Positions 41,590 through 56,500 of a DNA stretch of 64,000 bases are shown piece by piece. The translations under genes were made by a program, and so were the position numbers. Location: positions 17,899,784 through 17,963,783 of the forward strand of contig NC_134526.1 in the NCBI RefSeq assembly GCF_027942865.1, in the 5' to 3' direction. The notes beneath the pieces were generated by a model. The model was not told where the DNA came from. It worked only from the letters and a program-made list of their open reading frames with translations, and searched no databases. Source of the stretch: Odontesthes bonariensis (lineage: Eukaryota > Chordata > Actinopteri > Atheriniformes > Atherinopsidae). The first letter of the stretch is position 1; each line of letters opens with the position of its first letter.

Positions 41590-41671
41590 GTGGACTGGAA
41601 ATGATGCATTAAAACCACACCTGACTTTCACTGATGGTGTTTGTATTCATACTGTCTGATCCAGAGACCAC
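41590..41671 (+). ncRNA. snord41: Box C/D snoRNA, SNORD41-like, copy 1
   Basis: Sits in tnpo2 intron 1, ending 81 bases before the acceptor, the usual spacing for intronic C/D snoRNAs. Terminal stem GTGG.CTGGA with TCCAG...CCAC; C box ATGATGC (41601-41607), D' CTGA (41621-41624), C' TGATGG, D CTGA (41656-41659). The guide before box D is TTTGTATTCATACTGT. Human TNPO2 hosts SNORD41, whose guide as I recall it is nearly the same, directing 28S U methylation. Processing should follow intron debranching. Confidence 0.75.
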
Positions 41672-41753
41672 ATGCTTGCATGTTTCTCTTCGTTCAACTT
41701 AACAACATGTAAAGAACTGTGTAATGTGGAATAATCTGTGTGTGTTCAACAGG

Positions 41754-53502: not shown

Positions 53503-56500
53503 CCTCACCCCTCCCTTGGTCCACAGACCTGTTAGGTACGTCCGCAACACAGACGCGCACCCTCCCCCTACACCTCCTTCTGGATGTGATGAAACACCCA
53601 GCTCATTGATCAGCAATGATACCTTTTGTTCCCAAACACATTTTCTGATCCAGAATCCCACTTTTCACCCACACAGCTAAGCTTCTCTGGCCTCTGAACC
53701 CATCTTACACTGACTTGTCTTTGCTCTGTTCATTTCCCCCCCCCCCAGGTTAATGAAGGGGAGGGTAACAGGGGAACTCATTGCACTGCCCAGAACGTGG
53801 GGAGAAACTACAGCCGGAGGGATGTGACTGGCCTTGACCCTTCACTCTGCGGACGGCCTCCCTTTCCCCCGCGCCCTGTTTGTCTCTGTGAGGGAGGGTG
53901 GGAGGAGGGTGGTGGGTGTGGGAGGGTAAACTGGGGATATACATATACCTCTGGGATTAAACGCCTCACTAAATCCAACACACTCAAAAGCGACTTTCGC
54001 CAACTAGACCGCAGGGATCCTAGGTAAGTGAGGACGATATAGGGGCAGGGTTTACCGCCCCCTCCTCGATTGGAATATTCTCATGAGTTAGATGATGGCT
54101 GGGAGGGGAGGGGGTGGCAGATAGGTACATAGAGGAATTACCTGAACCAGCATAGAGTGCCACAATCCCAAATACTACAACACGTGTAGAATGACTCACA
54201 TGTAGCTGTGTTTAAGCCGGCTTGTGCCAGAGGCCAAACAGAAAACAGATGCTTTTACAATGTAATGACGTGCACAAAACCTTTTGCACCTTTTATTGCA
54301 AAAACTGCATAAACTTTTTGATGTGCATATACTTGGGTCTTTCGTCATATGTAGCTGAATTTAATTTCCTTCCTCTTCCCTTGGTTGCTGAATTCCTCTG
54401 TAACTGTTAGATTTGATTTCTTTCCCCTCATCAGAGGCAATAGAGATGCAGTCCACCTGTTCTCCAAGGTTTAAAGGACCGCAGCACCAAAATACCGCAT
54501 GGCATACGATCACCTTTAGTCGCATGTTTGAGTGAATGTCTTCTTCGTTTGCTGCATTAAACATCATCAGTGCAGGGAGGCTGCCGTCATTTGGGGCTGT
54601 CAGATGCTTGTTTCTTTTTGTCCTTTATACATGCTGTCTAATCATTGTCCCCATAGTTTAATGAAGGCAGCGTGTTAAGACCAACTATAGGTATACCGAT
54701 TCGGGAATTCGGCTCGTGTTTGGTGGTTGTTAATGCAACGGGGGTTCAAATACTGTAGGCAGATCAAGAAAACTATTTGCTGCTGTAGTTTTGTTTTTAG
54801 GATATTTACATAACGGACTTGATGAAAGCGATAAGACATCACCAAGAATTAATTGGTTCTTATTGGTATCAATGCACTTTTTCTATAAGAAATCTAGAAT
54901 TTCTCATATAAGGCATACAGTAATACTGAACTTGAGATAGTTTTTTTTTTTTTTTTGATAAGTGATTTTAGGACTGTTGTCTAAGCATGATAATGTTAAG
55001 CAATGGTAAAATGACATGGGTAAGACTCGAGGCCTCTTAACATAGTTTTATATTGCAGCTCCTTAAACGGACTGAATAGGATTTAAGGAGGGGGGGAGGT
55101 ATCGTATTTAAGATATCTTGGATCCATGTCGCGCTGCACCTGTCAATCCATACATGCGTATTAGGATGTTCCCGCCTTTCTCACCACAACTTCTTGGTTA
55201 TCAATGGCCATTTGAGCCAAACTTGTCATAATCATTGCATGCGTTTCGTCAAGATTTTCAGTCTTTTTATAACCGTCCCTTTAAGGGATCTACCTTATAA
55301 GAGCTTTGTCAATGGCAATGCAACTCGCTGCTGGACTAATAAGGTACTTCTCCAGCTTCTGATCAAACTAGTGATTGTTGTTGCCATATATTTACCCGTT
55401 GATACTGTGTAGGGTATGCCTGGGACTACAGAGTCCTATTATTTCTCCCCTGACACTGGTTAGCTAATGGGAGGGAGCGGTGGTTGTTATTCAACTTTAT
55501 CTTTTTAGGTATTTCTCCATAGTGGACAGTTGTAATGGAGGTGTGCATGGCTCTTTTGTCTGTTGGTGTTGGCACATGTAGACATAATTTAGCACCAGCC
55601 CTATTTTAAGGTTATGTTTGGGAGGTTAGTTTAAGTTTTGCCCGTGCTGATGTAGCCACCCCCCCCCCCACCCCCCTAGTATATTAACATTTACCTGCCA
55701 GTTAGCAGTCTGATCATCAGGTTGCCCTAGAGCTCCTGAGATGAAGATTATCGGGAGGGGGGAGAAAAATATTAAATCTATTTCTGATTGAAGAAGCATC
55801 GATATAAGCTTCTATCTGTGGATTATGCATTTTGTAGGATAAGCATTAATACAGGATTTTACATTTTTCTCCCTTCACAAATGTGACAATTTAGTTTGAC
55901 TGCCACAGTGTTTTAGATCGTACAACTTTTTATACGCTGCAACGCTCGACACAGAGAATATTGATGGTATCTGCTGTGGATCTAACTGGTAGCATGTTAT
56001 GGAAGGGTGCAGCTCCTGTGCCACGAAGAATTGGTTTAAAAAAATCGAGGCTTTTACCACTCCTTCGCCATGTTGATACATGAATTGTACACAAAATTCA
56101 AGTGAAGCCTAAATGTCCACAAGTTTAACTTTTTTTTTTTTTCTTTCTTTTGTCCGTTACTTTTGTTTTATTGCAACTTGTGTTTTTTAGTTTTTTAATT
56201 TATTTATTTTGTTTGTTTTTTATATTTTTATTTCTTTGTGCTCCGGTGCACAAATAGTTTTGGACTTTAAAAGTTTTGTTTTTTTGGTTGTTTTTTTTTC
56301 TTTCCCTTTTTATTCTTTTTATTTAAAGAAAATTTTTTGTTTCCGTTGTTTTACAGCGTTTACCATCTGATTATGTCAAATTTTTGACAAAAAAAATGGA
56401 ATGAAGGCGAGCCAGTGCTGGATGCACACCTTGGGGGAAGAATGTGGAAAACAAATTCACAACTGTTTCAATCTGATATCAAGGCTGGCAATTTTAATTA

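Follow-up and report, generated by a model that had tools for sequence, protein, structure and literature searches.

The introns of tnpo2 in Odontesthes bonariensis contain nine box C/D small nucleolar RNA (snoRNA)-like units, all on the plus strand and one per intron. They were found in a 64 kb stretch of DNA (GCF_027942865.1, NC_134526.1, 17,899,784-17,963,783 of the forward strand), referred to below as the window. Judged from the sequence, it is highly probable that these are nine C/D snoRNAs and that two of them (family A) guide the SNORD41 site of 28S ribosomal RNA (rRNA). The other seven (family B) share a second guide, for which a target in the peptidyl-transferase region is proposed.

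Family A consists of A1 (41595-41664), a SNORD41, and A2 (44137-44209; intron 44048-44298), a diverged SNORD41 copy. Family B consists of the young copies B1 (43276-43345; intron 42225-43897), B3 (47520-47589; intron 47322-48122), B5 (49216-49285; intron 49044-49637), and B6 (50565-50634; intron 50458-50996), and of the old copies B2 (46134-46203; intron 46060-46317), B4 (48383-48452; intron 48349-48529), and B7 (53580-53653; 3′ untranslated region intron 53536-53748). The intron of A1 thus precedes the first coding exon and that of B7 follows the stop codon, the other seven units being located between coding exons. For the intron of A1, the 3′ splice site was mapped; its 5′ end is outside the exon map.

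The boxes, stems, and positions of the units were read directly from the sequence. Each unit has a length of 70-74 nt and carries a box C (RTGATGN, with C as the last letter, TGATGC, in A1 and A2), a box D (CTGA), and a 5-bp core stem; box C and box D are closed by a terminal stem in all nine. An original prediction, made from the sequence, had claimed nine such segments in the tnpo2 introns, with a terminal stem that is usually CTGGA/TCCAG, internal D′ and C′ boxes in every unit, and a division into two SNORD41-like units and seven of a second family. All nine are present, and eight have the CTGGA/TCCAG stem, the remaining one (B4) carrying the paired exchange GTGGA/TCCAC. Internal boxes are found in eight units (D′ TTGA and C′ TGATA in 7/7 B copies; D′ CTGA and C′ TGATG in A1); in A2, the D′ box is CTGA and the C′ box is degenerate (TGAGG), which qualifies this part of the claim. 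The C/D identity and the two guide families are borne out by Rfam, by old copies that are conserved without their flanks, by complementarity to 28S rRNA, and by the intron position. The original prediction named no target for family B, no division into copies near to and far from the splice site, and no local duplication behind the young copies.

A naive C/D scan for RTGATGN, CTGA, and a stem of ≥4 bp, run on both strands of the whole 64-kb window, returned 11 matches, nine of which are the units. Within 41400-53800, it returned nine matches, all of them the units. Simulated versions of this region (first-order Markov, dinucleotide frequencies, n = 1000) gave a mean of 0.19 matches and a maximum of three. 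The nine-unit feature is therefore not due to chance.

Two results weigh against the identification. Only A1 reaches an Rfam gathering cut-off, the other eight units being below every cut-off, so that a search of the tnpo2 introns against Rfam confirms SNORD41 for A1 alone. When seven unit windows were folded, two with 11-bp stems were clearly better than shuffles (z -3.6), and the other five had z values of +0.4 to -1.5. Weak folding compared to shuffles is common for C/D RNAs.

The host gene (plus strand) was mapped as 24 exons (41753-53535) with GT-AG borders at every junction and an open frame throughout, the borders being chosen manually. Its product is a transportin of 901 residues. Compared to the PDB, it matches Transportin-1 chains over residues 2-901 with 1757 bits; no TNPO2 chain is among the 16 sequences listed. 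We take the gene to be TNPO2 rather than TNPO1, based on the human sequences. The adjoining WD40-repeat gene, which we take for FBXW9, supports this assignment.

Family A and the SNORD41 site

A1 matches the Rfam model for SNORD41 (RF00588) with 46.5 bits (E 5.3e-06) and passes the cut-off of 41. A2, at 33.9 bits, is under this cut-off but carries the same guide. The two units are 79% identical overall, and their flanks are 35% and 42% identical; in A2, the 5′ half has diverged and the 3′ half with the D guide has been kept. In a search of the 945-Mb genome with RF00588, A1 was the sole match among the best 63 of 221,904 candidates, a search that would miss copies as diverged as A2, which itself is unlisted.

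The D guides of A1 and A2 read GTATTCATACTG, compared to GUAUUCGUACUG in the Rfam SNORD41 consensus, a change from G to A. Both pair over 16 bp, with one G-U, with a fish 28S-like fragment on contig C2, which itself matches the eukaryotic large subunit (LSU) rRNA model with 557 bits. With a query taken from this fragment, 34 28S-like places were found in the genome and 21 of them were read. All 21 have CAGTATGAA, with T opposite the guide A. Human 28S reads CAGUACGAAUAC at this site, with C where the fish has T. The A-C mismatch that the fish guide would have against this human sequence was considered and is removed by the T in the fish 28S-like places. The eukaryotic LSU consensus prints U at the variable letter, and U is probably the older state. 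A concerted change of guide and target appears to separate this fish from mammals, as far as can be judged from these sequences, and such a co-change speaks for a family A RNA that is in use. The D guide of A1 and A2 would direct 2′-O-methylation of the 28S U in CAGUAUGAAUAC, equivalent to human U4276, the SNORD41 site. U4276 is included in a human list of 28S methylation sites (PMC10657414).

The state of the target has points against it. The full 12-mer CAGTATGAATAC is present in 18 of the 21 places and missing in three. The places are mostly fragments, none is a complete 28S gene, and nine are apparently copies of one dispersed repeat. These nine (L025-L033, on contigs C106, C60, C26, C17, C15, and C3) consist of a 28S piece with a common non-ribosomal tail. 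Rfam identifies 133 nt of L025 as LSU (model positions 2623-2763), and the other eight are alike around the target. They are perhaps a 28S-derived short interspersed element (SINE) or a captured rRNA fragment, to be regarded from their sequence as a dispersed repeat rather than ribosomal DNA (rDNA). A further three 28S-like fragments (L018, L020, and L022) have CAGTATGAACACAAACC instead of CAGTATGAATACAGACC and possibly belong to a different rDNA variant or to an old group of pseudogenes.

Family A resembles SNORD41 in its box layout, in the D guide to the U4276-equivalent, and in its host, TNPO2 being the human host gene. It differs in that there are two copies here, in the altered guide letter, and in the sub-threshold score of A2. 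The original prediction described the fish host as greatly expanded, a comparison based on human TNPO2, which we take to host a single SNORD41.

Family B and its predicted target

The seven B copies align without gaps except for a 4-nt insertion in B7, and CCCAGCTCATTGA, TGATAC, and GTTCC are invariant in all of them. B1, B3, and B5 share one 70-nt sequence, and the other units of both families (A1, A2, B2, B4, B6, and B7) can be distinguished by copy-specific letters. Between the old copies and other B copies, identity is 76-91% within the snoRNA but 33-49% in the 60-nt flanks, a level also seen when sequences are paired at random (mean 45%, 95th percentile 51%). That boxes and guide are conserved while the flanks are not is the principal argument for selection acting on the B RNA. 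The stem adds to this. Over 11 pairs, 76% of the cells are paired in the true register compared to 24-33% in slid registers, and two pairs are changed on both sides, one of them being the exchange in B4, where the outermost core pair has turned from C-G to G-C. The covariation is within the range of shuffles, which counts against it: two doubly changed pairs were obtained in 133 of 500 shuffles and the covariation score in 51 of 500, the measures overall being reached by 51-199. With five distinct sequences, covariation is weak when taken alone.

None of the seven copies is over an Rfam cut-off. The best score is that of B7 to SNORD103 (35.6 bits; cut-off 45); the other copies score 21.2-26.1 bits against SNORD103/SNORD85 (RF00188), below its cut-off. 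Sub-threshold scores to SNORD41, SNORD103, SNORD29, U54, and others seem to reflect the shared boxes and stem. SNORD29 (RF00070) was considered as the identity of family B and rejected, as it scores 24.7 bits at best (cut-off 48) and a separate fish SNORD29 is present on contig C24 (59.8 bits).

The B guide was searched against a 73-nt piece of the Rfam eukaryotic LSU consensus and a 629-nt fish LSU fragment. Complementarity to these pieces of at least about 10 nt exists in both families (16 bp in 2/2 A units and 10-12 bp in 7/7 B units). The D′ guide of family B, directly beside the TTGA box, pairs over 10 bp in six copies and over 12 bp in B2, without any G-U. For the four B sequences that were tried on the fish fragment, the best match was the site found in the LSU consensus. 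The methylated nucleotide is picked relative to the D or D′ box by the fifth-nucleotide rule, and in 7/7 B copies this rule leads to the C in GUGAG[C]UGGG. This C is 2 nt beyond the A that is addressed by SNORD29. We thus consider it likely, on sequence grounds, that family B guides methylation of the C in 28S GUGAGCUGGG, a nucleotide equivalent to yeast Cm2948 and located in the peptidyl-transferase region; the equivalence rests on published numbering and on our own alignment of the sites. The D′ guide of all seven RNAs would direct this methylation. In every copy, the D′ guide is in register with the Cm2948-equivalent, so that the family would work like snR69. The D guides of family B form 7-9 pairs with 1-4 G-U and differ between copies, and no target is claimed for them. 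We infer that GTTCC, which follows box C′, may add pairing to the neighboring upstream rRNA GGGAAC; extra pairing is known for some C/D snoRNAs (PMC8162545).

Several points count against this target. The search had a narrow scope, being confined to the two LSU pieces. Shuffled 16-nt guides reach a score of 10 on the 629 nt in 1.3% of cases and a score of 12 in 0.17%. In three of the four fish 28S-like places that were read at the B target, GGGATTAG is found instead of GGGTTTAG, and this variant would cut every B pairing to 9 bp there.

Family B might instead be an orphan or redundant guide that acts on the neighboring A as SNORD29 does, or on a non-ribosomal RNA, and the narrow target search leaves room for the latter. 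Its weak SNORD29 scores fit such a role. So does the literature: snR69, snoR69Y, and SNORD29 are placed in one Rfam clan (PMC3511168), and one Neurospora D′ guide has been assigned to both A and C (PMC2780460). This reading is unlikely because the D′ box TTGA leads to C and not A in every B copy, and a good SNORD29 exists elsewhere in the fish genome. SNORD29 and family B are alike in that their D′ guides cover the same 28S stretch; they are unlike in that the D′ box of family B is two nt nearer, so that another nucleotide is addressed (the D′ box of the fish SNORD29 lies two nt farther along, GCTCACT|TTGA).

For zebrafish, a map of 98 sites has reportedly been published by Ramachandran in 2020. 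Yeast Cm2948, guided by snR69, is located in the peptidyl-transferase center, is more than 85% methylated (discrepant values are noted), and lacks a human mark (PMC8307265). Dictyostelium Cm3281, guided by CD15, corresponds to yeast Cm2948, the human and plant entries being blank (PMC8817022), and a plant snoR69Y is listed in PMC3511168 and PMC2780460. The part of the human 28S list that was examined contains A4493 and then C4506, but no C4495 (PMC10657414); the part of the chicken table that was examined contains no equivalent of Cm2948 (PMC2653536). Family B and the guides snR69, snoR69Y, and CD15 share the same predicted LSU cytidine. Family B differs in being intronic and in having seven copies in one host gene. 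RF00475 (snR69) was not among the 39 Rfam matches listed up to an E value of 10, a listing in which a lower overlapping match would be hidden, as RF00475 and SNORD29 are in one clan. No vertebrate counterpart of snR69 was found in the portions of the literature that were examined.

If the B RNAs are made, the fish ribosome would be methylated in its catalytic center as in yeast and Dictyostelium, at a nucleotide absent from the human lists examined. This would provide a clean vertebrate test of the role of the methyl group and of why ancient sites are dropped.

Duplication within tnpo2 and the two position classes

The copies appear to have multiplied within tnpo2. Self-BLAST of 41400-53800 against the window revealed a duplicated intronic segment that carries B5 (49069-49594, plus strand), with related segments in the regions of B3 (47478-47891; 95% to the B5 segment), B1 (43119-43356; 92%), and B6 (50509-50841; 80%). 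The segments with young copies are 79-97% alike. A search of the 945 Mb yielded seven B places, all in tnpo2 and on one strand; this search scores best candidates only and leaves out very frequent words. For the right flank of B5 (49297-49594), there are three genome matches, all of them in tnpo2. This restriction to tnpo2 is a result of the genome search.

The B3 insertion (47390-47905, plus strand) joins a partial copy of exon 8 to the snoRNA segment. The exon part (47403-47487) is an 85-nt copy, 96.5% identical, of 46360-46444, which comprises the final 77 nt of exon 8 and 8 nt of the adjoining intron. A 15-bp direct repeat, AGATTGAGCTACACT, flanks the insertion on either side; among 2000 randomly chosen pairs of 90-nt zones from the region, 0.25% have a direct repeat this long. 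No target-site-like repeat of at least 7 bp was found at B5, B6, or B1 with its tail, and B1 alone has one of 7 bp. Retroposition as the general route was considered and set aside, with a target-site-like repeat at B3 only; the absence of such repeats elsewhere favors recombination or template switching. The sequence suggests that the B3 segment arose by template switching with insertion. Directly after B1 (43357-43418) is ATTTCCCCACTGTGGGATAATAAAGG with a CTTA repeat. We presume that this tail resembles the 3′ tail of a fish long interspersed element (LINE) or SINE.

That the repeats are copies of a dispersed transposable element which merely resembles a snoRNA could be argued from their repetition, from the direct repeat around the B3 insertion, and from the LINE-like tail beside B1. 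We regard this as extremely improbable: all B places and all flank matches among the best candidates scored are confined to tnpo2 and to one strand, and the old copies are alike in boxes and guide while their flanks differ.

The units fall into two position classes. A1, A2, B2, B4, and B7 are proximal to the 3′ splice site (88, 89, 114, 77, and 95 nt) and have stems of 5, 6, 6, 5, and 8 bp. The four young copies B1, B3, B5, and B6 are distal (552, 533, 352, and 362 nt), and each has a stem of 11 bp. An outward stem extension of at least 6 bp was found at 0.22% of 5000 random positions. Following the standard pathway, we infer that spliced introns would be debranched and trimmed to RNAs of about 70 nt, closed by the terminal stem. 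Expression of C/D snoRNAs is highest at a distance of about 70 nt upstream of the 3′ splice site (PMC8178906). U74, which is produced independently of splicing, requires an extended external stem (PMC12205218); a role of intron position and AQR in C/D snoRNA assembly is treated in PMC8162545. It is therefore proposed that the distal copies depend on their stem. The old copies would retain a position that favors splicing-coupled assembly, and the 11-bp external stem of the young copies probably supports assembly independent of position. Against this, the association of extended stem and long distance counts only once because the four copies share one recent origin.

The main rival to stem-dependent distal copies is that the units are real but that the four young copies are unexpressed by-products of duplication, with the five proximal copies alone at work. 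They are situated 352-552 nt from the splice site, in a duplicated segment whose right flank is found in tnpo2 only, and in humans, most C/D snoRNAs of high abundance have the 3′ splice site no more than 100 nt away (PMC8178906). B3 brought part of exon 8 along, which would be expected of a duplication without function. In four comparisons of young copies, however, the cores differ without gaps by 0-1 of 82 letters, compared to 5-15 substitutions and 0-66 gap columns in the surroundings, and the 11-bp stem is intact in 4/4 copies. The lower core substitution is non-significant in each of the four comparisons (p 0.08-0.22), which weakens the case for constraint. Based on their sequence, we lean toward the view that the young copies are active, and their silence is a somewhat less probable alternative.

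Intronic C/D snoRNAs that have multiplied within their host gene are of an already known kind. C/D snoRNA families of chicken and human have grown mainly through copies made inside a single host gene; families of this type include SNORD58 in RPL17 and, in chicken, GGgCD15 in PUM1 (three copies) and GGgCD57 (four copies) (PMC2653536, PMC8178906). The tnpo2 paralogs resemble these in residing in different introns of one gene. They are unlike them in that one gene holds 7 + 2 copies of two families, in two classes of position and stem. Among the literature matches listed, none dealt with snoRNAs of tnpo2 in fish, which does not prove that such a paper is lacking. New, as far as our analysis shows, are a B family below the Rfam cut-offs, its predicted target in the peptidyl-transferase region, the co-changed SNORD41 guide, and the two-class layout.

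More tentatively, family B could be a vertebrate guide for the ancient Cm2948, apparently lost in mammals and here kept or regained, with its dosage raised by copying and with young copies that switched to stem-driven assembly. If they did switch, one transcript would make the same guide by two routes. The nine units per transcript constitute a natural experiment that sets intron position against external stem in the maturation of snoRNAs, and most of the units can be told apart by copy-specific letters.

Further features of the window

Within tnpo2, a micro-exon of 36 nt (50997-51032) adds about 12 residues to the transportin while the frame stays open; it is possibly an alternative exon. The genes neighboring tnpo2 code for a KH-domain protein (2279-2707, plus strand), an RFX1-type transcription factor (14114-14731, minus strand), and the WD40-repeat protein (58436-59461, plus strand) that may be FBXW9. 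The two remaining matches of the C/D scan are both outside the nine units: one at 26180-26102 on the minus strand and one at 2068-2116 on the plus strand, which is taken for a coding exon of the KH-domain gene.

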